NCBI RefSeq assembly: GCF_018326285.1
Contig: NZ_AP023362.1
Location: forward strand, 930,001 to 994,000
Origin: Mycolicibacterium sp. TY81
Lineage (GTDB): Bacteria > Actinomycetota > Actinomycetes > Mycobacteriales > Mycobacteriaceae
Reading direction: 5' to 3'
DNA: 64,000 nt
Below are positions 5,508 to 18,973 of this stretch, piece after piece. The notes under the pieces were generated by a model that was not told the DNA's origin, searched no databases, and worked only from the letters and a program-made list of their open reading frames with translations. The position numbers and the translations under genes are program-made. Position 1 is the first letter of the stretch, and the number at the start of each line of letters is the position of its first letter.

Positions 5508-5594
5508 GCCTCTGACGCCTGCGGATTTGTTCCCATCGCATCGTTCTGAGCGCAAACCTGGGTGCCGGGCGCCTCGAGTCGTAGCTTGCACGGT

Positions 5595-6917
5595 GTGTCG
5601 AAAGAACTTCACCTTCTAGCGTTCGGCAACACTCGATCCGCCGGACCGTGGCGGCACCCCGATGCAGACAACAGCACCGCGGGTGTGCGGCGCCGCCTCA
5701 TCAAACACGCGCAGACGGCGGAAGCGGGCACCTTCGACGCACTGTTCTTCGCCGACGGGCTGAACTACGGGCCGCCGGCCACCTGGGCCTACAAGATTCC
5801 CGAGGATTTCGAACCGCTCACCGCGACGGCCGCGCTGTCGTCGGTGACCGACCACATCGGTCTGGTGGTCACCGGCTCGGCGACGCTGCAGCATCCTTTC
5901 CACCTGGCGCGGCAGCTGCTTTCGCTCGATCACCTCAGCGGCGGGCGAGCCGGATGGAATCTGGTGACCAGTTTCGCTCGCGCGGCGGCGGACAATTTCA
6001 GCGCGCGGGGCGTCGTCGATCACGACGAGCGCTACGCGATCGCCGAAGAGGCGCTCGACGTGGTCCGCAAACTCTGGGACGGGTGGGGCGAGGACACGAT
6101 CATCGAGGACCGGGCCGCCGGAGTCTTCCACGATGTCAACACGATTCGTACGGCAAACCATCACGGCAAGTACTTCGATGTGACGGGCCCGCTGGGTGCG
6201 TCGCGCTCCGCGCAGGGCCAGCCGGTGATCTTCCAGGCCGGAGCGTCGACCACCGGTAGGACTTTCGCCGCCCAGCACGCCGAGGTCATCTTCACCAGCC
6301 ACGGCAATCGCGAACGGGCACAAGAGTTCTATCGGCAAATCCACCAGGAGGCCCGGCGTCTCGGCCGCGCCACACCGCCGCTGATCACCCCGTCGTTCCG
6401 CTACGTCATCGGCTCGACCGAGGACGAGGCGCGCCGCGCCGAACGGGACGAGTACGAGTACTTCAGCCCCGAATATCAGGCGGCCTGGCTGCTCGAGGTG
6501 GAGGTCGACGTCGTCGGCGCCGATCTCGACGGACCCGTGCCCGACTCGGCATTTCCCGAATCCACGCAGACGCACCAGACCGCGCTGGCCGGATATCGCG
6601 CGCTGGCCGCGGAAAGCCCGACCGTGCGGGACTTCCTGTATCGCACCGTCAACGGCTGGGGCGCCGGCGTCGTCGGCACCCCGGAACGCATAGCCGACGA
6701 ACTCGAGGAGTGGTTCACCCAAGGCGCCGCAGACGGTTTCGTCCTTCGCGACTCCGGATTGCCCGGCCAGGCCGAGTTGTTCGTCGATCAGGTGGTTCCG
6801 GTGCTGCGCAAGCGCGGCCTGTTCCGCCACGAATACGCGGGCACGACGTTGCGATCGCATCTCGGGCTGGAGGTCCCCGCTCGCGCCTCGTCTTTCGCTG
6901 AGCCAGGTGCCCGATGA
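5595..6917 (+). CDS. LLM-class flavin-dependent monooxygenase (NtaA/SnaA/DszA type), first copy
   Basis: A 440-residue member of the bacterial luciferase-like group that uses reduced FMN from a partner reductase. Family features are the start ELHLLAFGN, the DALFFADGLNYG strand, the SLDHLSGGRAGWNLVTS block, the DERYAIAEEALDVVRKLWDGW helix and PVIFQAGASTTGRTFAAQHAE. This subgroup includes enzymes acting on nitrilotriacetate, dibenzothiophene sulfone and dimethyl sulfide; the substrate is not readable. GTG 5595 is chosen because the family pattern begins immediately after it; another GTG lies at 5562. The stop overlaps the next start as ATGA, so it heads a co-translated run. Confidence 0.85.
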   Translation: MSKELHLLAFGNTRSAGPWRHPDADNSTAGVRRRLIKHAQTAEAGTFDALFFADGLNYGPPATWAYKIPEDFEPLTATAALSSVTDHIGLVVTGSATLQHPFHLARQLLSLDHLSGGRAGWNLVTSFARAAADNFSARGVVDHDERYAIAEEALDVVRKLWDGWGEDTIIEDRAAGVFHDVNTIRTANHHGKYFDVTGPLGASRSAQGQPVIFQAGASTTGRTFAAQHAEVIFTSHGNRERAQEFYRQIHQEARRLGRATPPLITPSFRYVIGSTEDEARRAERDEYEYFSPEYQAAWLLEVEVDVVGADLDGPVPDSAFPESTQTHQTALAGYRALAAESPTVRDFLYRTVNGWGAGVVGTPERIADELEEWFTQGAADGFVLRDSGLPGQAELFVDQVVPVLRKRGLFRHEYAGTTLRSHLGLEVPARASSFAEPGAR

Positions 6918-8296
6918 CGGAGCCCTTCGTCCTCGCCGGTTTCACCATGTCGACGGTGTCGCACGGCAACTTCGGCATGTGGCGTCACCCGCAGGACCAG
7001 ACCTCCCGGTACACCGACCTCCGGTACTGGGTGGAACTCGCGCAGCTCTTGGAGGCCGGCGGCTTCGATCTGCTCTTCATCGCCGACGCGGTCGGCCAGC
7101 TCGACGTCTTCGGTGGCAGCGCGCAGGCGGCGCTCACCGGCGCGGTGCAGACACCGGTCACCGACCCGCTGCTCGCCGTCTCCGCGATGGCGGCCGCCAC
7201 CGAGCATCTCGGCTTCGGCATCACGGTGTCCACCACGTACGAGAGTCCATATCTGCTGGCGCGCAAGTTCAGTACGCTCGACCACCTCACCGGTGGGCGG
7301 ATCGGGTGGAACATCGTCACGTCGCTGCTGGACAGCGCCGCCCGCAACATCATCGCGCGCGACCGGCAGATTCCGCACGATGAGCGGTACGCGATGGCGC
7401 AAGAGTTCCTCGAAGTCACCTACAAGCTGTGGGAAGGGTCCTGGGAACCCGACGCGGTACTGCGCGACCGCGACCGTGGCGTCTACACCGACGCCGACAA
7501 GGTGCACCCCATCGGGCATCACGGCCGCTACTTCAGCGTGCCGGGTGCGCATCTGGTCGAACCGTCCCCGCAACGCACTCCCGTGTTGTTCCAGGCCGGA
7601 ACATCGACGGCGGGAAGGGAATTCGCGGCGCGCAATGCCGAATTGGTGTTCGCCAGCGATCCCCGTCCGGAGGTGTTGCGCGCCAACATCGCCGACATCC
7701 GGCGTCGCGCAGTGCAATACGGGCGGCGTCCGGACGCCATCAAGTTTCTGACCTCGGTCGAGATCGTCACCGACAGCACCGATGCCGCCGCACAGGCGAA
7801 GGCCGACGAACTGGCGCGTTACCACGATCTCGAAGCCGGTCTGGTGCTGTTGTCGGCGCTGTCGGGTGTCGACTGGTCCGGCTACGGGGTGGACCGGCCG
7901 ATCGAACAGTTCGACACCGACGCGAGCCGGTCGATCCTGGCCGCCGTGGCCGATCCCGATGCGCGCCAGCGTCTTACGTTGCGTGACTATGCCGGTGGGC
8001 TCGGCGGCTTCGGGGGCGCGTTGTTCGTCGGCTCCGGCCGCACCGTCGCCGACGACCTGGAAAGTTACGCGGAGCGCGCGGGCGTCGACGGCTTCAACAT
8101 CTCGTATCACATCACACCGGGCAGCTTCGTCGATGTCGCCGAACACCTGATCCCCGAGCTGCGCCGGCGCGGGCGAGCGCGGGAGGCCGGTTCTTCGGAG
8201 ACGTTGCGACAGCGAATTTTCGGCGGCGCGTCTGCACTGCTGCCCGACGATCATCCCGGTACCGCGTTCCGGCATCAAAGAATCGCGTCGATTTGA
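6914..8296 (+). CDS. LLM-class flavin-dependent monooxygenase (NtaA/SnaA/DszA/DmoA type), second copy
   Basis: A 460-residue paralogue of the preceding enzyme, with the same landmarks: FDLLFIADAVG, STLDHLTGGRIGWNIVTSLLDSAA, DERYAMAQEFLEVTYKLWEGSW, and PVLFQAGTSTAGREFAARNAE. Length and motifs fit the DszA/DmoA/NtaA branch, two-component FMNH2-dependent monooxygenases. ATG 6914 overlaps the previous stop (ATGA). No flavin reductase is encoded in the window, so the FMNH2 source is elsewhere. With a permease and an SfnB/DszC-like protein downstream, oxidation of an imported organosulfur or chelator-like compound is a reasonable inference. Confidence 0.85.
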   Translation: MTEPFVLAGFTMSTVSHGNFGMWRHPQDQTSRYTDLRYWVELAQLLEAGGFDLLFIADAVGQLDVFGGSAQAALTGAVQTPVTDPLLAVSAMAAATEHLGFGITVSTTYESPYLLARKFSTLDHLTGGRIGWNIVTSLLDSAARNIIARDRQIPHDERYAMAQEFLEVTYKLWEGSWEPDAVLRDRDRGVYTDADKVHPIGHHGRYFSVPGAHLVEPSPQRTPVLFQAGTSTAGREFAARNAELVFASDPRPEVLRANIADIRRRAVQYGRRPDAIKFLTSVEIVTDSTDAAAQAKADELARYHDLEAGLVLLSALSGVDWSGYGVDRPIEQFDTDASRSILAAVADPDARQRLTLRDYAGGLGGFGGALFVGSGRTVADDLESYAERAGVDGFNISYHITPGSFVDVAEHLIPELRRRGRAREAGSSETLRQRIFGGASALLPDDHPGTAFRHQRIASI

Positions 8297-8337
8297 TCGC
8301 TGCCGTATCGACCGTGACTGGAGGAAAGTGAATATCA

Positions 8338-8359
8338 CGGTAATAGATCGGTAAATACC
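8338..8359 (+). promoter_or_regulatory. Tandem CGGTAAT/CGGTAAA direct repeats before the permease gene
   Basis: CGGTAATAGAT and CGGTAAATACC lie head to tail with an 11-base period (one helical turn) about 60 bases before the permease start. The spacing suits a regulator site, but none is identified. Much of the 110-bp gap is AT-richer than its surroundings. Confidence 0.25.
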
Positions 8360-8406
8360 TGTGCGGCAAAGCATTACGCGATACGCAGGGTGGAAAGGCA
8401 GGCAAC

Positions 8407-9954
8407 GTGTCCGCACCGAATCGCGTGGAACTGGCCGGTCGCGCACTGGCCTCCGCGCAAGGTCATGGGTTACAGAACGACGCGCTGGGATTCTGGGGGG
8501 TCTTCGCGCAGGGGCTGGCGGCCGCCGCACCCAGTGTGGCGCTGGCGTCGGTGCCCTTTTCGCTTTTCGTGGCCGCCGGTAACGGAGCGACCTGGGCGGT
8601 GCTCGTCGGCTTGGCCATCACCGTGCTGATCGCCACCACCATCAGCTTCCAGGCCCGGCGCACCGTGTCGTCGGGCTCGCTGGGCACCTACACCGGTAAC
8701 GGGCTGGGCCCGGGATTCGCCTACGCCGCAGGTTTCAGCCTGTTGATCGGATACATCGGTTTCGCCACCACCGGCACCCTGGGCGGCGTCGTCTACCTCG
8801 ACTCGTTCCTGGAATCCATCGGATTGGGTTCGCAGGCAACGTGGTTCCGGCTGCTGCTGGTGGTGATCATCGTCGGCGTCGCGACGTACCTGCCGTTCCG
8901 CGGTGCGTCCATCGCAGCCAAGTACGAGCTGGTCTTCGAGCTGATCGCCATCGCGTCGATTCTGGTGATCATCGTCGCCTCGTATGTCGGCTATGGATTC
9001 CGCGTCGATTGGGAGCAGTGGAACCCGGCACACCTGGGCAGCAGTACCACTTTCATTGCCGCGGTATCGGCCGTCGGTTCATACGCCGGCTTCGAGAGTG
9101 TCGCCTCGCTCGGCGCGGAAGCCAAAGACGCACACCGCAATATCGCCCGCTCCCTGCTGCGGGTGGTTTTACTGCTGGGTGTGCTCTACGTCGTGTCGAC
9201 CTATCCGCAGATCCTGCACTTCAACTCGATCGACGGTGACAAGGCGATCCTGCCGCAGCTCGCGGACTCCACCGGCGTGCACTGGGTGAACCAGGTCGTC
9301 AGCGCAACCGTGGCGATCGCGTTCATCGTGTTCGTCACCGCTGTGACCACCGCCGCGGCACGGTCGCTGTTCACCTTCGCCCACGAGGGTGCGCTGCCGG
9401 CCGCGTTGACCAAGGTGCATCCCAAGTACAAGACGCCGTGGGTCGGCATCGCCTTCATCGGCGTGCTGTCCTTCGTCTTCTCGGTGGTGGCCACCGTGAG
9501 TTCGGCCGGCCGCGTGGTGTTCGACGTCTACGGCGCTTTCGTGGCCAATTGGGGATTCCTCGTCAGCTACCTGCTGGTCGTCGTCGCAACGCCCATCTGG
9601 CTGTACAAGATTCGGGCCCTCACCCCGGTGCGGCTGGCCGTGTCCGTGGCCGCGACGCTGGCCATCGGGTACGTCATCTTCAGCAATTTCTATCCGGCAC
9701 CGAAGTTCCCGTTCAACATCCTGCCGCTCATCTATGCGGGCATCCTGCTGGCGGGGCTGGCCTGGTACTGGTATCTCAAGCGCACCCGGCCTGAGGTGGC
9801 CCGTCGGATCGGCAGCATTCAGACCCTGTCCGAATCCGAGCAGCAGCGGCTGATCGACGAAGGCATCCTCGAAGTGCTCGATCACCGGGCCGAGCAGACG
9901 AGTGCCGATGACGATCGTGAGCCGGACCGCGACAAGGAGCCGGTGGCCCCATGA
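8407..9954 (+). CDS. APC-superfamily amino acid permease
   Basis: A 515-residue integral membrane protein with about 12 hydrophobic segments and the APC layout: GFWGVFAQGLAAAAPSVAL in TM1, an unwound glycine-rich stretch, FESVASLGAEAKDAHRNIARSL after TM6, and a hydrophilic C-terminal tail (SEQQRLIDEGILEVLDHRAEQTS). The likely role is proton-coupled uptake of an amino acid or related amine; specificity is not readable. GTG 8407 follows AAGGCAGGCAAC. It sits 110 bp after the second LLM gene and overlaps the GNAT gene (ATGA), so it may supply substrate to the flanking enzymes. Confidence 0.88.
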   Translation: MSAPNRVELAGRALASAQGHGLQNDALGFWGVFAQGLAAAAPSVALASVPFSLFVAAGNGATWAVLVGLAITVLIATTISFQARRTVSSGSLGTYTGNGLGPGFAYAAGFSLLIGYIGFATTGTLGGVVYLDSFLESIGLGSQATWFRLLLVVIIVGVATYLPFRGASIAAKYELVFELIAIASILVIIVASYVGYGFRVDWEQWNPAHLGSSTTFIAAVSAVGSYAGFESVASLGAEAKDAHRNIARSLLRVVLLLGVLYVVSTYPQILHFNSIDGDKAILPQLADSTGVHWVNQVVSATVAIAFIVFVTAVTTAAARSLFTFAHEGALPAALTKVHPKYKTPWVGIAFIGVLSFVFSVVATVSSAGRVVFDVYGAFVANWGFLVSYLLVVVATPIWLYKIRALTPVRLAVSVAATLAIGYVIFSNFYPAPKFPFNILPLIYAGILLAGLAWYWYLKRTRPEVARRIGSIQTLSESEQQRLIDEGILEVLDHRAEQTSADDDREPDRDKEPVAP

Positions 9955-10946
9955 CAGTGGAAGCAGAACGCCGCGTGACAAGCTGGACGGTGACACCTGC
10001 GACGCCGATCGACCATCCACAGATCGCCGATTTCCTGGCCACCACTGTCGGTATCGGGGGACGCAAGTTCGCGGCTGATTCCCGTGATATCGCCGAACAA
10101 TTCGACGACGCCCTACCCGACGCGCTGCTGGTGGTGCACGACGAAGCGCAGCGCGTCCGGGGCTACGCGGCATTGCACGAGCCGCACGGGCTGGCCCCGG
10201 AGTTCCTGGCGGACTTCGTCTTCGACCCGGCGACCGCGGACGACGTCGTCGACGCGACTGTCGTGGCGGTAGTCGCCCGGTTCCAACGGGAAGCCGCCGT
10301 GATCCCGAAAGCGTTCCTGCGCAGTTTCATCGGGCCCACGCAGCAGATCGCCCTCGACGCCCTCATCCGACTCGGCGCCACGGAGGAAGGCCGCTTCATT
10401 CGGACCCGCAAGTCCCTGGAAGACGAGGACGCCGAGGACCTGCAGGCCCTGACGCTGTCCGGACTCACGTTGCTGAGCTGGCCGGAGGTGATCGAGCGGG
10501 GTCTCACCGAACAGGTGCGCAGTCTGCAGTTCGACACGTTCCTCGAACACTTCGGCAACATGTCCAAGTCGCCGGAGAGCTTCGCCCACCACATCGAGAG
10601 TCGTGCTTTCACACCGGATTTCAGCAACGCGGTGGTGAACGAAGCGGGCGAGGTGGTCGGGTACGTGCTGGGCTCGACCTACACCCACCTGACCGGCGAC
10701 GCCGAGGAGCGCAGCGCGCACACCGACTACATCGGCGTACGCGCAGACGAACGCAAGCGCGGGATCGGTGAATTCCTGCTGCGCAAGATCTGGCTGGCGG
10801 CGCTGCGCCGCGGCCTGTCGATCGCGTCGCTGGGCACCGATATCAACAATGCGAGCAAGGCGCACCTGCTGTATGCCCGACTGGGATACGTCGCGGTCGA
10901 ACACCAGTCCGCGTACCGCATCGACTCGGAAGGATCCGCCAAATGA
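9951..10946 (+). CDS. Tandem GNAT-domain acetyltransferase
   Basis: A 331-residue protein that appears to hold two GNAT folds, as in mycothiol synthase-like proteins. A degenerate N-terminal domain covers about residues 10-150 (VRGYAALHEPHG). A better conserved C-terminal one covers 180-325, with the acetyl-CoA loop in DYIGVRADERKRGIGEFLLRKIW and the closing strand AHLLYARLGYVAVEHQSAYRI. It is linked by ATGA overlaps to the permease before it and the flavoenzyme after it, so the three are translationally coupled. Substrate unknown; acetylation of the imported amine is one possibility (inference). Confidence 0.8.
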   Translation: MTVEAERRVTSWTVTPATPIDHPQIADFLATTVGIGGRKFAADSRDIAEQFDDALPDALLVVHDEAQRVRGYAALHEPHGLAPEFLADFVFDPATADDVVDATVVAVVARFQREAAVIPKAFLRSFIGPTQQIALDALIRLGATEEGRFIRTRKSLEDEDAEDLQALTLSGLTLLSWPEVIERGLTEQVRSLQFDTFLEHFGNMSKSPESFAHHIESRAFTPDFSNAVVNEAGEVVGYVLGSTYTHLTGDAEERSAHTDYIGVRADERKRGIGEFLLRKIWLAALRRGLSIASLGTDINNASKAHLLYARLGYVAVEHQSAYRIDSEGSAK

Positions 10947-12163
10947 GCTCCACCGCAAACTATCTGCAGACTCCGACCGCCGATCTCGACGACCTACGGG
11001 CGCACTTCGCGCCGGTGTTCGCCAAGATCGCCGAGGCGAATCTGGACCGCGAACGCACGCGGACGTTTCCGCACGAGCAGGTGAGCCTGCTCAATGAAGC
11101 GGGGTTCGGCACGCTGCGAATCCCGGTGGAGCGCGGCGGTTTCGGCGCCTCACTGCAGCAGGTGTTCCTGCTGCTCGCCGACCTCGGGGAGGCCGATGCC
11201 AACGTCGCGCACATCTGGCGCAACCATCTGGCCTTCGTCGAGGACCGGCTGAACGCACCGGTATCCGATACCAATGACATCTGGATCAACCGGTTCCGGG
11301 CCGGTGAATTCGTCGGTGGTGGCTGGACGGAGGCCAACAACGTCACGCTCGCCAACCTGGTCTCGACCGTCACCACCGAGGGAGACCACTACCGGGTGAC
11401 GGGCACGAAATTCTATGCCACGGGCAGTCTTTACGCGGACTGGCTCGATGTGCTCGGCCGCGGTGACGACGGCGAACTGCTCACCGCACTGGTGCGCGCC
11501 GACGGTCCCGGGGTCACCCTGGTCGACGACTGGGACGGCTTCGGCCAGCGCACCACGGCCAGCGGGACCGCCCGCTATGAGCGGGTGCGGGCCGAACGCG
11601 GCGATGTGTTTCCGGCCGCCGAACGGTTCGCCTATCAGGGCCACTTCTACCAGATCGCGATGTTGTCGGTACTGACCGGAATCACGCGGGCCGCGCTGCG
11701 CGACGGCTCGGCGGCTCTGCTCGGTCGTAAGCGCAACTACCCACAGGGCCTGACCGAGGTGCCAGCTCAGGACGCGCAGCTTCTGGCCGTCATCGGTGAG
11801 GTGTCCGCCGACGCGTTCGCGGCGGAAGCCGCACTTGCCAAGGCCGGCGAGGCGCTGGACCGCATCGCCGGAGACGACGACGGCGCGCGGCGGCGGCTGA
11901 TCGCGGCCGAGGTGGCGGTGTCCCAGGCGCAGCTGGTGATCATCGCGGCCGCCCTGCGCGCCACCACGACGATCTTCGACGCGCTCGGTGCGTCCGGGGT
12001 GTCCGAAGTGCGTGGCCTGGACCGGCATTGGCGCAACGCCCGCACACTGGCCTCGCACAACCCGCGGGTGTACAAGGCGCGCATCCTCGGCGATCACCTG
12101 ATCAACGGCACCGACCCGGTACCCGACTTCGCCGCGCTCGGGCGTGGGGGACAAGGCAATTAG
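10943..12163 (+). CDS. Acyl-CoA dehydrogenase-fold flavoenzyme (SfnB/DszC-like)
   Basis: A 406-residue protein with the acyl-CoA dehydrogenase architecture: N-terminal helical domain (EAGFGTLRIPVERGGFGAS), central beta domain (GGGWTEANNV, VTGTKFYATGSLYADWLDV) and C-terminal four-helix domain. The usual dehydrogenase base segment is not obvious. The general look is that of the SfnB/DszC/IsoB branch, which oxidises or desulfonates small compounds with FMN rather than dehydrogenating acyl-CoA. The ATG overlaps the GNAT stop (ATGA), making it the last gene of the coupled run. It ends 19 bp from a convergent methyltransferase. Confidence 0.82.
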   Translation: MSSTANYLQTPTADLDDLRAHFAPVFAKIAEANLDRERTRTFPHEQVSLLNEAGFGTLRIPVERGGFGASLQQVFLLLADLGEADANVAHIWRNHLAFVEDRLNAPVSDTNDIWINRFRAGEFVGGGWTEANNVTLANLVSTVTTEGDHYRVTGTKFYATGSLYADWLDVLGRGDDGELLTALVRADGPGVTLVDDWDGFGQRTTASGTARYERVRAERGDVFPAAERFAYQGHFYQIAMLSVLTGITRAALRDGSAALLGRKRNYPQGLTEVPAQDAQLLAVIGEVSADAFAAEAALAKAGEALDRIAGDDDGARRRLIAAEVAVSQAQLVIIAAALRATTTIFDALGASGVSEVRGLDRHWRNARTLASHNPRVYKARILGDHLINGTDPVPDFAALGRGGQGN

Positions 12164-13211: not shown

Positions 13212-15033
13212 TTAGGGCGAGCCCTCCGCGATGCGGCGGACCGCATCGATGAACACGTCGATCTCCTCGAACGTGTTGTAGAACGCGAACGACGGACGCA
13301 CCGTCGCCTCGAGTCCCAGGCGCCGCAGGATGGGCTGGGCGCAGTGGTGCCCGGCCCGCACCGCGATACCTTCGGCGTTGAGCGCCTTGCCGACCTCGAG
13401 CGGCTCGTGCCCGGCCAGCACGAAGGACAGCACGCTGGCCTTCTCGTCGGCCGTGCCGACCAGCCGCACTCCCGGAATGGCCGCCAACCGCGGGGTGGCG
13501 TATTCCAGCAGAGCGTGCTCGTAGGCCGCAATCCGTTCGATACCAACACGTTCCACGTACCGGATCGCCTCACCCAGTCCCACCGCGTCCGCGATGTTGC
13601 CGGTGCCGGCCTCGAACTTGTTGGGCGGTCCCTGGAACACCGAACGCTCCAGCGTCACGTCGGCGATCATGTTGCCGCCGCCCTGCCACGGCGGGGTTTC
13701 GGCAAGCACGTCCTCGCGGCCGTACAGCACGCCGATGCCCGTCGGCCCGTAGATCTTGTGCCCGGAGAACACGAAGAAATCGGCGCCGAGTTCGGCCACG
13801 TCGATCGGGACGTGCGGGATGGACTGCGCCCCGTCGATCAGCACCCTGGCCCCGTAGCGGTGACCCAGCTCGACGATCGTCTTGACCGGCGTCACCGTGC
13901 CCAGCGCATTCGAAACCTGCGTGGCAGCAACCAGTTTCGTCCGCGGACCCAGCAGGTCCTCGAACTCGCTGAGCAGCAGATTGCCGGCGTCGTCGACCGG
14001 GGCGACCTTGATGACCGCGCCCGTCTGCTTCGCGATCAGCTGCCACGGAACGATGTTGGCATGATGCTCCAGGTGGGTGATGACGATCTCGTCACCCGGG
14101 CCCAGGTGCTTGCCACCCCACGAGTACGCCACCAGGTTGATGGCCTCGGTCGTGCCGCGGACGAAGATGATCTCTTCGGTCTTCGACGCGCCGATGAACC
14201 GCCGGACCGCCCTCGCGGGCATCCTCGTAGGCATCCGTGGCCCGTGCCGCCAGTTCATGCGCGGCCCGGTGGATGTTCGAGTTCTCGTGGGCGTAGAAGT
14301 ACGCCAGCCGGTCGATGACCGACTGCGGCTTCTGCGTCGTGGCCGCGTTGTCGAACCAGATCAGCGGCTTGCCGTTGACCGTCTCCTTGAGGATCGGGAA
14401 GTCGGCCCGGATCGCGTTGACGTCGAAGACCTCGTGGTCGTCCGGCACCACCGGAACCGGTTCGGCAGCAACGGATTCCGTGGGTGACTGCAGGAAGTAG
14501 TAACTCCCGGCATCCTCCGACGGCGGCGGAGCGCCCGTCCAGTTCAGCTCCGGCACTGCCGGGACGGTGCCCGGCCAGGTCGGCGCGGAGCCGCGCGGCG
14601 CGACAGGGGCGCTCGGCGGCGCAGCCAGCACCCCCGGCACCGTCGGGACCAGACCCGACGGCACCGCGAACGCCTCCAGCCCGCCGAACGGCGCGACCGG
14701 GCTCACCGCGTTACCCCGCGGTGCGACCGGCGCCGTGCCCGGCGGAATGCCTTCCGGCCCAGGCGAAGTCGGTGCCGGCGCGAACAGCTCCGGCACCGAT
14801 ACGAACTCGCCCGGCGTGCCCGGGTGCGCCAGACCGGCCGCGGTGGCGGCCGCCGACGTCCCGGTGGTCGCATCCCGGGCCACCCCGCGCGGCGCCACCT
14901 GTGTGGTCACCGGCGGGCTGTCCGGACCGGGGCGAAGGCTGGTGGCGTAGATCTGGCTGGCCAGTGCCGAGAGTTGGGCCTCGCTCAGTGCCGTTTGTTC
15001 GCTCCCGCTCAGTGGCAGATCACTTGTACTCAT
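13212..15033 (-). pseudogene. Encapsulin cargo cysteine desulfurase (SufS-like), frameshifted
   Basis: A PLP enzyme that removes sulfur from cysteine, here with a 200-residue low-complexity N-terminal extension typical of family 2A encapsulin cargo. The extension has a short helix ([18 protein letters not shown], residues 16-33), three VAPRG repeats (46-50, 103-107, 144-148), then Pro/Ala-rich linker. The catalytic fold starts at [11 protein letters not shown]; the PLP lysine is in FSGHKIYGP and the active Cys in RAGHHCAQP. Near residue 274 a GGG (CCC at 14210-14212) replaces the expected GG, shifting the frame between DAYEDARE and AVRRFIGAS. Without the extra base the product is 606 residues. 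The start (ATG 15033) overlaps the encapsulin stop by 14 bp. A sequencing error is possible. Confidence 0.85.
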
Positions 15034-15943
15034 GGAAGTGGTCCACTCCGACGTCCTCGAGGACCGCCAGCGCATCGTCGGTGAGAACCGCCAGCGACGA
15101 GTACAGCGTGACCAGGTAGGACGCGATGGCCGACCGGTTGATGCCGGTGAAGCGGACCGACAGGCCCGGGGCCTGCTCGCCGACCAGACCCGGCTGGAAC
15201 AGGCCGACCACGCCCTGACGCTCCTCGCCGGTGCGGACCAGGATGAACTTGGTTTTGCCGTCCACGACGGGCACCTTGTCCGACGGGATGATCGGGATGC
15301 CGCGCCAGGTGATGAACTGGGCGCCGAACAGGCTGACGACTGGTGGCGGCACGCCGCGGCGGGTCGCTTCCCGGCCGAACGCCGCCACACCCAGCGGGTT
15401 GGTCAGGAAGAAGGCGGGGGTCTTCCACACTTTGGTGATCAGGGAGTCCAGATCGTCGGGCGTGGGGGTGCCGCGCAGCGTCTGGATGGTCTGCTCGGGC
15501 GTGACCTGCGACAGCAACCCGTACTCCGGGTTGTTGATCAGCTCGGACTCCTGGCGTTCCTTGATGGTCTCGATGGTCAGGCGCAGCTGCTGGGCGACCT
15601 GGTCATGTGGGCTGGAGTAAAGGTCCGATACCCGGGTGTGGACGTCGAGCAGCGTCGAGATGGACCGCAGCGTGTACTCGCGCGGGCTGGTCTCGTAGTC
15701 GACGTAGGTCTCGGGCAGCGGATCCTCGGTACCCGAACCCTGCTCGGCAGCGATGGCGACCTGTTCGGGGTTCACCACGCGGTTGACGCGGTAGATACCC
15801 GCCTCGACCGGTACCCAGCTCAGCAGGTGCAGCAGGAATCGCGGGGTGATGGTCGACAGTTGTGGAACTGTCTTGGTGGCATTGGCTAGCTGCCTTGCGG
15901 CGAGATCGCCGAGGGCCTGCGATTCGTTCTGCGCAGACGTCAT
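15020..15943 (-). CDS. Family 2A encapsulin shell protein (SrpI/MMP-I-like)
   Basis: A 307-residue HK97-fold nanocompartment shell protein. The N-terminal arm ([20 protein letters not shown]) precedes the sequence [22 protein letters not shown], the [25 protein letters not shown] stretch, [23 protein letters not shown], the [17 protein letters not shown] strand pair and a C-terminal [21 protein letters not shown]. These match the group that includes cyanobacterial SrpI and mycobacterial major membrane protein I. The ATG at 15943 follows GTCGGAGGTAG. The gene precedes and overlaps the cysteine desulfurase cargo gene, the defining two-gene arrangement of family 2A. It appears intact even though the cargo gene is frameshifted. 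Confidence 0.92.
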
Positions 15944-15991: not shown

Positions 15992-16049
15992 CGGCTTTGC
16001 GGGGGTCTCCACAGGGTTAGCGCGCAGCGTGGTTGAAACCCGTGGCTAA

Positions 16050-17499
16050 GTCCCCTGGGGTGGTGGGAATTCGGGGACGGGGCTGAGGTGGGCGGAGATG
16101 TTCAGGCCGTGTCGGTGCCGGTGTTGGGGTGGGCCATCGCGTAGTGGTCAGTGAGTTACGTACCAAAGTGACTCACCGAAGGAAACCGCGCGATGACCCT
16201 TGACCATTCTGCCCTGCTCGCTCAGCTCGATGCACTGAAGTCCGCTGACTCGGGTGCGGTGTTCGCCGAGTTGATCCGTTCCGGGTTGCAGCAGCTCATC
16301 GAGGCCGAGGCCACCGCGGCGATCGGCGCGGGCCGTTACGAACGCAGCGACGGCCGCACGGTGCACCGCAACGGGCACCGCCCCAAGACCGTCTCCACGA
16401 CCGCCGGGGACATCGAGGTGCAGATCCCCAAGCTACGGGCGGGATCGTTCTTCCCGTCGCTGCTGGAACCCCGCCGGCGTATCGACAAGGCGCTGCACGC
16501 GGTCATCATGGAGGCCTACGTGCACGGGGGTGTCCACCCGCAGCGTCGATGACCTGGTGACGGCGATGGGCGTGCAGACCGGGGTGTCCAAGTCGGAGGT
16601 GTCGCGGATCTGCGCCGGCCTGGACCGCGAGATCACAGCGTTTCGGGAACGCTCGCTGACCCACACCAGCTTCCCCTACGTGTTCTGCGATGCCACCTTC
16701 TGCAAGGTCCGCGTGGGGGGCGCACGTGGTCTCCCAGGCCCTGGTGGTCGCGACCGGCGTGTCGATCGACGGCACCCGTGAGGTGCTGGGCACCGCGGTC
16801 GGTGACAGCGAGTCGTTCGAGTTCTGGCGCGAGTTCCTCGCCTCGCTTAAGGCGCGCGGCCTATCGGGGGTGCACCTGGTCATCTCCGATGCGCACGCTG
16901 GGTTGAAAGTCGCTGTGGCACAGCAGTTCACGAACTCATCGTGGCAGCGGTGCCGGGTGCATTTCATGCGGAACCTGCATACCGCGGTATCGGCCAAACA
17001 CGCCCCGGCGGTTACCGCGGCGGTCAAGACCATCTTCGCTCACACCGAACCCGACGAGGTCGCCGCGCAGTGGGACCGGGTCGCCGACACCCTGGCCGCG
17101 TCGTTCCCGAAGGTGGCCGCGATGATGGGCGAGGCCAAGACCGACGTGTTGGCGTTCACTGCGTTCCCGAAGGCGCATTGGCAGAAGATCTGGTCGAATA
17201 ATCCGATAGAGCGTCTGAATAAAGAGATCAAGCGTCGGGCCGATGTCGTGGAGATCTTCCCCAATCCGGCGGCGTTCCTTCGCCTGGCCACCGCGGTGGT
17301 CATCGAATCCCACGACGAGTGGCAGGTCACCCGCCGCTACCTCTCCGATGTCTCCATGGACGAACTACGCGCCGTGATCGCCGCCAAACACGCCGCGGCA
17401 GCACTTGCCAAACAACACCAAATCGCCTAGCGTTCACCATGACTCGTTGATCACAACGCGTGAACCACGCCAGATCCGAAGTCCACCACTCCCCGGGAC
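16050..17499 (+). mobile_element. IS256-family insertion sequence, degenerate
   Basis: About 1.45 kb containing one broken IS256-type transposase gene. Candidate imperfect terminal inverted repeats are the left GTCCCCTGGGGTGGTGGGAA (from 16050) and the right end read inward GTCCCGGGGAGTGGTGGACT (ending at 17499); they share GTCCC, GGGG, GTGG and then TTCGG. No 8-bp target duplication is recognisable (GTGGCTAA against GCTATCAA), so the exact ends are uncertain. It lies between the encapsulin operon and the poly-Cys leader. Confidence 0.65.
16193..17430 (+). pseudogene. IS256-family (mutator-type) transposase, two frameshifts
   Basis: Three overlapping frames together rebuild a transposase of about 410 residues. 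Frame one (16193 to about 16530) gives the N-terminal helical region and GRYERSDGRTVHRNGHRPK. Frame two (to about 16715) holds VSTRSVDDLVTAMG and the first catalytic Asp in FCDATFCKVRV. Frame three gives the second Asp in VISDAHAGL and the Glu in NNPIERLNKEIKRR. The breaks fall in GGGGG near 16526-16530 and GGGGGG near 16715-16720; each has one G more than the family reading requires. All three DDE residues survive, so the copy is either recently dead or affected by homopolymer miscalls. Start ATG 16193 follows CGAAGGAAA. Confidence 0.85.
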
Positions 17500-17569
17500 G
17501 CTATCAAACCCGTTTGCCGTGACGAATTCGGCCGTGGCTTTTCTGCGTGAGTGCCGTATGGTAGGCGGC

Positions 17570-17638
17570 GTGACCCACGACGGAGAACTGCGCATGCCCA
17601 TGCGGCGCTGCTTCGTCGTGCCGTGTTGTTGTTGTTGA
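17570..17638 (+). CDS. Poly-cysteine leader peptide (probable cysteine attenuator)
   Basis: A short reading frame ending MPMRRCFVVPCCCC then TGA, with four consecutive TGT codons. Two starts are possible. GTG at 17570 lies 7 nt after TATGGT (17557-17562), the exact spacing of a leaderless mycobacterial transcript, giving 22 residues. ATG at 17594 has GGAGA 8 nt upstream, giving 14 residues. Poly-Cys upstream ORFs of this kind are reported in mycobacteria as cysteine-responsive attenuators of downstream genes. The next gene starts 93 bases after the stop. The repeated Cys codons at the very end are what a ribosome-stalling sensor of Cys-tRNA needs. Confidence 0.78.
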   Translation: MTHDGELRMPMRRCFVVPCCCC

Positions 17639-17731
17639 TTTTCTGACGCCGACCCTCTGCGTTCTGCCCGCCCATCTTCTGGCGGTGCACGTAAACGCGC
17701 TGTTCACAGCCTCCAGGAAAGCAACACCGCA

Positions 17732-18973
17732 ATGCCCTCCTCCTCTCTGCTCGCCCCCACCCGCACTGCCGTCACGGTCCGCCGGACCGTGCGCCGGGAC
17801 GCCGAGATCACCCGGATGACCCGCTACCGCGGCGGCACCTATTCGCCGACCGTCGATACCGTGGTGTTCACCGACGGAACGACGGCGCGCACCGACCTGA
17901 TCCGGCTGAACCCGAACATCGACGCGTACTCGCTGGACTTCCTCGGCGTGGCCCCCACCCGGCCGTCCCAGTACCGGCCGGCGAACTGGTCGGCGGTCCC
18001 CAACGTGGCAGCGCGTGCCTTCGAGGCCGAGGTCGACTGGATCATCCGCAACTCGTACCCCACCCTGGGTACGGTCGAGCTGAGCCGCCGGGTACGCGGG
18101 GCGGGCCACCTGAGCGGTGACGCCCACCTGGCCGAGCACGAGGCCATCGCCGCGACGCAGGCCGCGATCTGGCATTTCACCAACGGCCTGCGCCTGGACA
18201 ACCGTCCCCTCAACGTGCCGGTCGCGATCACCACGGAACCAGGTGCCATCACCTTCGAATTCGACGGCGAACCCCAATTGGGCAGCTACACAGTCGAATT
18301 GACGAGCGACGCCGCCGTCTCGCTGGTGCTGCAGAAATCGGTCGACGGGACGTCATGGCGCGAAGTGGCCGCATCGGGACTCAACGTCGGGGCGGGCTAC
18401 GGGCGTCACCGCCGGGGCATCGGGGTCGGTGCCACCGCGTCGGACAGCCGCCCGGGCCGTCAACACCGCGGGTACCGCTTCTACCGTCTGCAGATTCTCG
18501 CCGACAACGGGGCGTTCGTCGACATCGAAGACGTGCGCTTCACGCTCCATGGGTCCGGCCACTACCGCAACGCCGAACGCGTTGTCGCGCTGTACAACTA
18601 CCTCGTGGCCGGTGCCGAGGCGGCACGGAGCCTGACGGTGGTGCCGCGGCTCACCGCCGACCGCGCAGTGGTCGCCGATGTGGTGGGACCCTTCCGGTTC
18701 GAGGCCACCGACGCCGCGACGCTCGCCGCCGCCGGCGGCACCCTCGTCGACGCGGCCGGGGGGTCGATCTCCGCCCCGGTCGCCCCCGGCAGCGACGTCT
18801 ACCTGCGGCCAGCACCACAGGTTCGGCGGGTGACCATCACCGCGAGTGTGCCTGCGGCACAGAACGGTTTCGGCGGCCGCGTCATCACCGGGGTGGCGCA
18901 CGACAGCAGCCTGACGCCCGTCGCACTCGCGGTGCCGACCCCGACCGTCATCGACTTCGAACTCACCTTCTAG
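17732..18973 (+). CDS. TQXA (thioester)-domain-like protein lacking cysteine
   Basis: A 413-residue protein whose first 160 residues resemble the TQXA/thioester domain of Gram-positive surface adhesins: the conserved AATQAAIWHFTNG is at residues 141-153. In the family a Cys in an AYC(I/L)D motif bonds to the TQ glutamine; here the motif is AYSLDF with Ser67, and there is no cysteine in the whole protein. No signal peptide or sortase motif is visible, although the N-terminus has basic VRRTVRR. The C-terminal part is beta-rich. ATG 17732 follows AGGAAAG at 10 nt. It lies behind a poly-Cys leader, so expression should rise when cysteine is scarce (inference). Function unknown. Confidence 0.72.
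   Translation: MPSSSLLAPTRTAVTVRRTVRRDAEITRMTRYRGGTYSPTVDTVVFTDGTTARTDLIRLNPNIDAYSLDFLGVAPTRPSQYRPANWSAVPNVAARAFEAEVDWIIRNSYPTLGTVELSRRVRGAGHLSGDAHLAEHEAIAATQAAIWHFTNGLRLDNRPLNVPVAITTEPGAITFEFDGEPQLGSYTVELTSDAAVSLVLQKSVDGTSWREVAASGLNVGAGYGRHRRGIGVGATASDSRPGRQHRGYRFYRLQILADNGAFVDIEDVRFTLHGSGHYRNAERVVALYNYLVAGAEAARSLTVVPRLTADRAVVADVVGPFRFEATDAATLAAAGGTLVDAAGGSISAPVAPGSDVYLRPAPQVRRVTITASVPAAQNGFGGRVITGVAHDSSLTPVALAVPTPTVIDFELTF

Follow-up and report, generated by a model that had tools for sequence, protein, structure and literature searches.

The 64,000-nucleotide stretch of the Mycolicibacterium sp. TY81 genome analysed here (the window; contig NZ_AP023362.1, positions 930,001 to 994,000) carries a short upstream open reading frame (uORF) that ends in four cysteine codons and, 93 bases beyond its stop codon, a gene for a 413-residue protein related to bacterial thioester domains (TEDs). 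Genes for a family 2A encapsulin shell and a cysteine desulfurase lie divergent to this gene (Table 1). A sequence-only reading of the locus had noted the leaderless-type uORF, the absence of Cys codons from the downstream gene and a serine at the site of the thioester-forming cysteine, each of which is confirmed here. It overlooked the encapsulin and desulfurase genes, the undetected export signals, the loss of a second bond residue and an inserted jelly-roll domain.

Homologues were collected from a sample of 248 mycobacterial genomes, 95 of which match the protein. Ninety of the other 94 matching genomes were used, G044, G057, G070 and G139 being excluded as fragment matches, and decayed or partial copies at loci L120 and L121 were left out. 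The resulting set of 89 comprises 88 intact homologues and the window protein. For each homologue, a script took the start codon nearest that of the query, and those assigned to L044–L046 are probably too far downstream. A second sample of 348 genomes from the order gave matches to the TQXA model TIGR03934 in 89 genomes (12 mycobacteria and 77 others), and 42 loci from the 77 non-mycobacterial genomes served as canonical controls, of which 41 were read (L202 yielded none).

A conserved poly-cysteine leader

The leader noticed in the window is a constant feature of this gene. A poly-Cys uORF, defined by at least three Cys codons among its last six and a position no more than 350 nt upstream of the gene, precedes 89 of 89 homologues, as compared with 25 of 6,163 control windows from the same loci and none of the 41 canonical TQXA genes. 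It is likewise present in two further genomes from a later sample. The uORF stop codon is TGA in every case, 86–146 nt from the assigned gene start, and none of 86 intergenic regions carries a poly-Cys uORF on the side facing the shell gene.

Because the TATGGT box ends 7 nt upstream of the GTG at 17570, the mRNA can begin at the uORF itself, with this start site being a prediction. A TANNNT hexamer precedes the uORF start in all 89 leaders, at a gap of 6 nt in 46 loci and 7 nt in 43, against a background of 218 among 35,340 ATG or GTG codons of the same loci. Each homologue is thus predicted to have a Cys-run uORF whose start is fit to be the mRNA 5′ end. A strict sigma-70 scan of the leader returned no promoter. 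Across the TY81 genome, the pattern TGY-TGY-TGY-TGA (which misses interrupted Cys runs) occurs at 27 places, and only the 17570 uORF has a leaderless-type start; the exact leader motif has two further matches, with one and two mismatches.

Leaderless poly-Cys ORFs are reported to act as cysteine-responsive attenuators in M. smegmatis (Canestrari et al. 2020, through the accounts in PMC9094748, PMC9031893 and PMC13236596). The window leader shares with these attenuators (see also Shell et al. 2015, PMC4633059) a short leaderless ORF with terminal Cys codons in front of a gene. The attenuators named in the available text lie at cysA2, Rv0485/Msmeg_0932 and nirA, whereas the window leader precedes a protein without known sulfur function. 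Seliverstov et al. 2005 (PMC1262725) described a leader before MAP2122 of M. avium and ML0840 of M. leprae, which by name, length and place are the same gene; they called these genes hypothetical and without other reliable homologues, and the accessible part of their account mentions no domain, encapsulin link or anti-Shine-Dalgarno motif.

The corresponding locus of M. leprae TN (L097) encodes a 434-residue protein. ML0840, also 434 residues and listed as a leprosy T-cell antigen (PMC3040138), is presumably this protein, judging by length and leader. The M. abscessus TQXA gene MAB_0219, which we infer to belong to the same family, is preceded by a uORF that was listed in 2016 as one of the ribosome-protected ORFs (PMC4974804).

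Table 1 Features of the TY81 locus (window positions)
Feature	Position	Strand	Details
-10-like box, TATGGT	17557..17562	+	7 nt 5′ of uORF start; kept in homologous leaders
Poly-Cys uORF, leaderless-type, VTHDGELRMPMRRCFVVPCCCC	17570..17638	+	GTG start 17570; 22 codons and TGA stop; ends CCCC-stop
TTTTCTG, proposed anti-Shine-Dalgarno motif	17639..17645	+	Directly 3′ of uORF stop; [CT]CTG conservation, duplex energy
CCAGGAAAG, Shine-Dalgarno of downstream gene	17713..17721	+	Proposed partner of TTTTCTG
Pseudo-thioester-domain protein (TED/TQXA fold)	17732..18973	+	ATG 17732; 413 residues, no Cys
Ser67 codon at thioester-Cys site	17930..17932	+	Ser in 89/89 homologues
TQAAIW helix motif, residues 142–147	18155..18172	+	TQAAIW in 85, TQAAVW in 4, of 89
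Inserted jelly-roll, F5/8C, CBM32-like, residues about 160–276	18209..18559	+	Structure comparison; TQ-to-GRV spacing
Residues 393–395, place of bond-forming Gln in canonical TEDs	18908..18916	+	Thr395 invariant; no Gln in window protein
Family 2A encapsulin shell, SrpI-like	15020..15943	-	PF19307 E 3.2e-96, NF041162; 0 Cys, start Met only
Cysteine desulfurase cargo gene, two frames	13212..15033	-	Start 15033; frame change near 14211; NF041166, Aminotran_5; frames compared with L033
Insertion of about 1.47 kb, Mutator-family transposase in two ORFs	16041..17505		Not in the 4 close relatives compared

A thioester domain without its bond residues

The 413-residue protein matches both the TED family PF08341 (E = 2.6e-12, 47.5 bits; curated cut-off 22) and TIGR03934 (2.8e-17, 62.4 bits; curated cut-off 30.4), and it is assigned to the TED fold. 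It shares with class I and II thioester domains (PMC4450167, PMC6194298) this fold, the [YFL]-x-hydrophobic-hydrophilic site and the TQxxxW helix. The site where canonical proteins carry the bond-forming Cys in a [YFL]C motif reads [YF]C in 41 of 41 controls, whereas the window protein reads YSLD and serine occupies this position in every homologue. Indeed, Tyr66, Ser67, Gln143 and Thr395 are invariant among the 89. None of these homologues combines a normal Cys with the lack of a leader, a combination seen only in canonical relatives outside the genus.

The TQAAIW motif, which the sequence-only reading took as the retained glutamine motif, is present, but its Gln is not the one that forms the bond; in TEDs the bond-forming Gln is distal (PMC4450167, PMC6194298). 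This distal residue has also been lost. In the corresponding column (residue 393; the assignment is alignment-dependent), Gln is found in 41 of 41 canonical proteins and in only 6 of the 89 homologues, with four more at residue 392. Since the Cys is replaced by Ser throughout and the Gln column is not kept, both thioester partners appear to be gone and an ester is unlikely as well. These substitutions support the proposal that the domain has lost its covalent chemistry.

Formation of a Ser–Gln or Ser–Glu ester in place of the thioester, with serine as a sulfur-sparing nucleophile, would explain why Ser67 is invariant, and both residue pairs are among the viable bond pairs of another adhesin fold (PMC12679949). 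An ester-bond domain combines a Ser or Thr nucleophile with a Gln or Glu electrophile, however, and here the hydroxyl residue is retained and the Gln, universal in the canonical proteins, is not. We regard such an ester as very improbable.

Relative to class I and II TEDs, the window protein differs at both bond residues, in its undetected export signals and in a jelly roll that follows the TQXA helix. The TQ-to-GRV spacing is 228–241 in 75 of 89 homologues (8 gave no measurement) versus 125–147 in 37 of 41 canonical proteins. The 50 Foldseek rows listed consist of CBM32/discoidin and other chains, with no TED among them, and VIA-align applied to the same candidates found TEDs. A sequence profile search of solved structures gave a single weak match (E = 0.88).

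By hydropathy, the sole measure used, no N-terminal secretion signal was detected: 0 of 89 homologues exceed a Kyte–Doolittle (KD) value of 1.5 in their first 60 residues (median 0.47, maximum 1.35), and the canonical minimum is 1.56. A C-terminal L[PA]xTG sorting signal is absent from the last 60 residues of all 89 but present in 39 of 41 canonical proteins, one other of which is cut off. Weighing against an internal location, C-terminal hydropathy overlaps the canonical range in 10 of 89. Overall, these features indicate a protein that is predicted to be non-covalent and apparently intracellular.

The protein might instead be an exported, non-covalent adhesin that leaves the cell by an unusual route, with the encapsulin neighbour merely a co-regulated sulfur gene. 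TEDs are surface adhesins, the inserted jelly roll is CBM32-like, and the 10 overlapping proteins have a C-terminal stretch above KD 1.8. Furthermore, ML0840 is the T-cell antigen mentioned above, and the shell and desulfurase of M. avium subsp. paratuberculosis were enriched as an envelope complex (PMC8049743). The hydropathy gap at the N terminus, the missing sorting tail and a near-perfect co-occurrence with the shell (below) all speak against export, which we consider improbable.

A post-stop motif predicted to mask the Shine-Dalgarno sequence

Pairing of the Cys run itself with the ribosome-binding site (RBS) was considered and dropped, as duplexes between the run and positions -30 to -1 are no better than shuffled ones (22 of 200 as low). 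For this reason, pairing by a motif just past the uORF stop was taken up instead. The tetramer [CT]CTG lies within 9 nt of the stop in 77 of 89 leaders (CCTG in 41, TCTG in 36). The duplex of this post-stop segment with the Shine-Dalgarno (SD) sequence averages -7.30 kcal/mol. Shuffled motifs average -4.15 kcal/mol and motifs exchanged at random between loci -6.23 kcal/mol, with none of 300 control sets reaching the real value in either case; segments shifted along the leader give -3.68 to -5.13 kcal/mol. TCTG faces CAGA in 23 rows and CCTG faces CAGG in 32, and 4 rows are crossed.

Besides the failure of the Cys run to pair, several observations weigh against this mechanism. The tetramer is missing from 12 of 89 leaders, including a whole clade of eight and L099, and the pairings of L056 and L087 contain an A–C mismatch. 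Thirty of the 89 rows fit neither the TCTG/CAGA nor the CCTG/CAGG class clearly, and on the tree the letter switch is for the most part one deep split, with L111 as the only clear second double change. The SDs were moreover chosen with an assumed 16S tail. We consider the predicted motif–SD pairing well supported and its covariation only modestly supported.

This arrangement suggests that the leader acts by translational attenuation. Alternatively, a genuine leader could work through Rho-dependent or intrinsic transcription termination rather than SD masking. A single terminator-like hairpin is located inside the uORF at 17601–17620 (0.3 expected by chance), and Rho has been proposed for cys leaders (PMC1262725). 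The same source, as far as available, describes mycobacterial cys leaders without conserved hairpins, and the post-stop motif pairs with the SD better than all controls, which makes termination unlikely. Translational control remains our preferred reading. The universal leader, the motif in 77 of 89 and the published precedent together make it likely that synthesis of the protein is under cysteine control, in agreement with the earlier suggestion. That the leader is an attenuator and that the TED behind it is dead we hold to be highly probable.

Linkage to a family 2A encapsulin

The shell and cargo genes of the window are those of the family 2A encapsulin that holds a cysteine desulfurase (PMC8049743, PMC8346489, available in part). 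The accessory genes given there are serine acetyltransferase and rhodanese, and the words ‘thioester’ and ‘TQXA’ appear in neither main text. An encapsulin match is present in 90 of the 248 mycobacterial genomes, and all 90 also match the pseudo-TED protein; the five genomes with a protein match and no encapsulin contain the protein in pieces only. All 88 gene pairs compared are divergent neighbours, with 276–511 nt between the matches, and rough ORF calling places the desulfurase cluster in 77 of 91 loci. The order sample includes 12 mycobacteria with TQXA, and exactly these 12 also have the encapsulin (10 of them were already in the first sample). The gene is thus genomically linked to shell and desulfurase, as a family 2A component would be. 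Clustering of neighbours by longest ORFs was abandoned in favour of protein search, since those ORFs are probably spurious antisense frames.

Some loci argue against a strict association. Encapsulin matches are partial in 5 of the 90 genomes (G076, G089, G105, G184 and G240), and in G240, G105 and G076 an intact pseudo-TED protein stands beside a fragmentary or split shell. Two non-mycobacterial 2A loci, moreover, hold shell and desulfurase without the protein. In G089 both genes are decayed. In G184 and G240, the encapsulin matches, at two or three places, cover its first 35–37 residues and none of the remaining shell, and the intact pseudo-TED gene of G240 adjoins one such partial match.

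Three non-mycobacterial genomes exceed the 2A encapsulin cut-off (G276, G323 and G566). All three lack a TIGR03934 match, and the two whose loci were examined contain no leaderless poly-Cys uORF. From the combined evidence, a functional tie between the pseudo-TED protein and the encapsulin is probable.

The desulfurase is a single ORF in close relatives such as L033, and its frame change in the window may be a sequencing error or decay. The transposase insertion sits between the shell gene and the leader. Elsewhere, the window encodes two NtaA/DmoA-type monooxygenases, an amino-acid permease, an SfnB-like protein, a methanethiol S-methyltransferase and a sulfate ABC transporter.

Cysteine and methionine content

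The sequence-only reading held that the protein had been purged of cysteine. The window protein indeed has no Cys and only one Met besides its start Met. Among its mycobacterial relatives, however, the Cys-to-Ser change is universal and the absence of Cys is not: the 89 proteins have 1.07 Cys on average, and just 41 of them lack it altogether. These Cys-free proteins account for 7 of 47 in the largest clade, 32 of 34 in another and 2 of 8 in a third. Canonical TED regions (median 275 residues) contain 0.37% Cys and 0.50% Met, and the mycobacterial set 0.25% Cys and 0.59% Met. As a canonical TED holds about one Cys, losing that residue leaves a nearly Cys-free domain, and the composition of the window protein needs no special purge, a reading for which the case is weak. 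Among 30 further window genes, selected by GC content at third codon positions (GC3), nine are also Cys-free, mostly in the neighbouring sulfur genes. In the largest clade (for example L060, L065, L075 and L093), 27 of 47 proteins have a Cys within the last ten residues, a clade-specific trait.

Selection for sulfur economy in a protein synthesized under sulfur starvation could still account for the Cys-free make-up. The near-complete absence of Cys in one clade is in keeping with this idea, as are the nearly sulfur-free genes at 5562–12163 and the shell, which lacks Cys in 81 of 86 cases and has only its start Met in 84 of 86, whereas two non-mycobacterial relatives carry 3 and 4 Cys. Cys is nevertheless present in 40 of 47 proteins of the largest clade, and canonical TED regions are equally poor in Met; we therefore view sulfur saving as a doubtful explanation for the pseudo-TED protein. 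The shell is the more striking low-sulfur case.

The run of nearly sulfur-free genes at 5562–12163 includes NtaA/DmoA monooxygenases of 451 residues (0 Cys, 0 internal Met) and 460 residues (0 Cys, 4 internal Met). It also holds an amino-acid permease of 515 residues with neither Cys nor internal Met, and GNAT (331 residues) and SfnB-like (406 residues) proteins that each have 0 Cys and 1 internal Met.

Proposed mechanism and implications

Our favoured explanation, which we hold somewhat more probable than not, is a cysteine-responsive translational attenuator that controls a non-covalent, apparently intracellular pseudo-TED protein in the family 2A encapsulin and desulfurase system. The mRNA would begin at the uORF, a step for which the sequence evidence is strong. 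When cysteinyl-tRNA is ample, the uORF would be completed and the post-stop motif would pair with the SD, keeping output of the protein low. Under a shortage of cysteinyl-tRNA, a ribosome stalled on the Cys run would cover the motif, leaving the SD free and permitting synthesis. The conserved pairing is consistent with this switch. The protein, lacking both thioester residues and carrying a jelly roll of sugar-binding type, may then bind the shell or the desulfurase, so that the compartment would spare or release sulfur instead of consuming cysteine. This particular brake or release role is tentative and, at present, rather unlikely.

The arrangement is real and conserved and extends beyond what was first noticed in the window; how the protein acts is conjectural. 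In the literature searched, mostly without subscription papers, we found neither the dead TED nor its encapsulin link described. There is an even chance that a formerly covalent surface adhesin domain, disarmed at both bond residues and now cytosolic, has become a cysteine-gated third component of a sulfur compartment, also in leprosy bacilli, where it lies beside the dominant 35-kDa antigen.

In such a protein the TED fold would do without covalent chemistry. Because it is matched in all 90 shell-matching genomes and its leader is apparently built to read the supply of cysteinyl-tRNA, deletion of a single gene would put to the test what the encapsulin does with the sulfur that the desulfurase frees (PMC8049743). 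The copies in M. leprae (L097) and M. lepromatosis (L104) are open, which suggests that the protein has been kept despite heavy gene decay.
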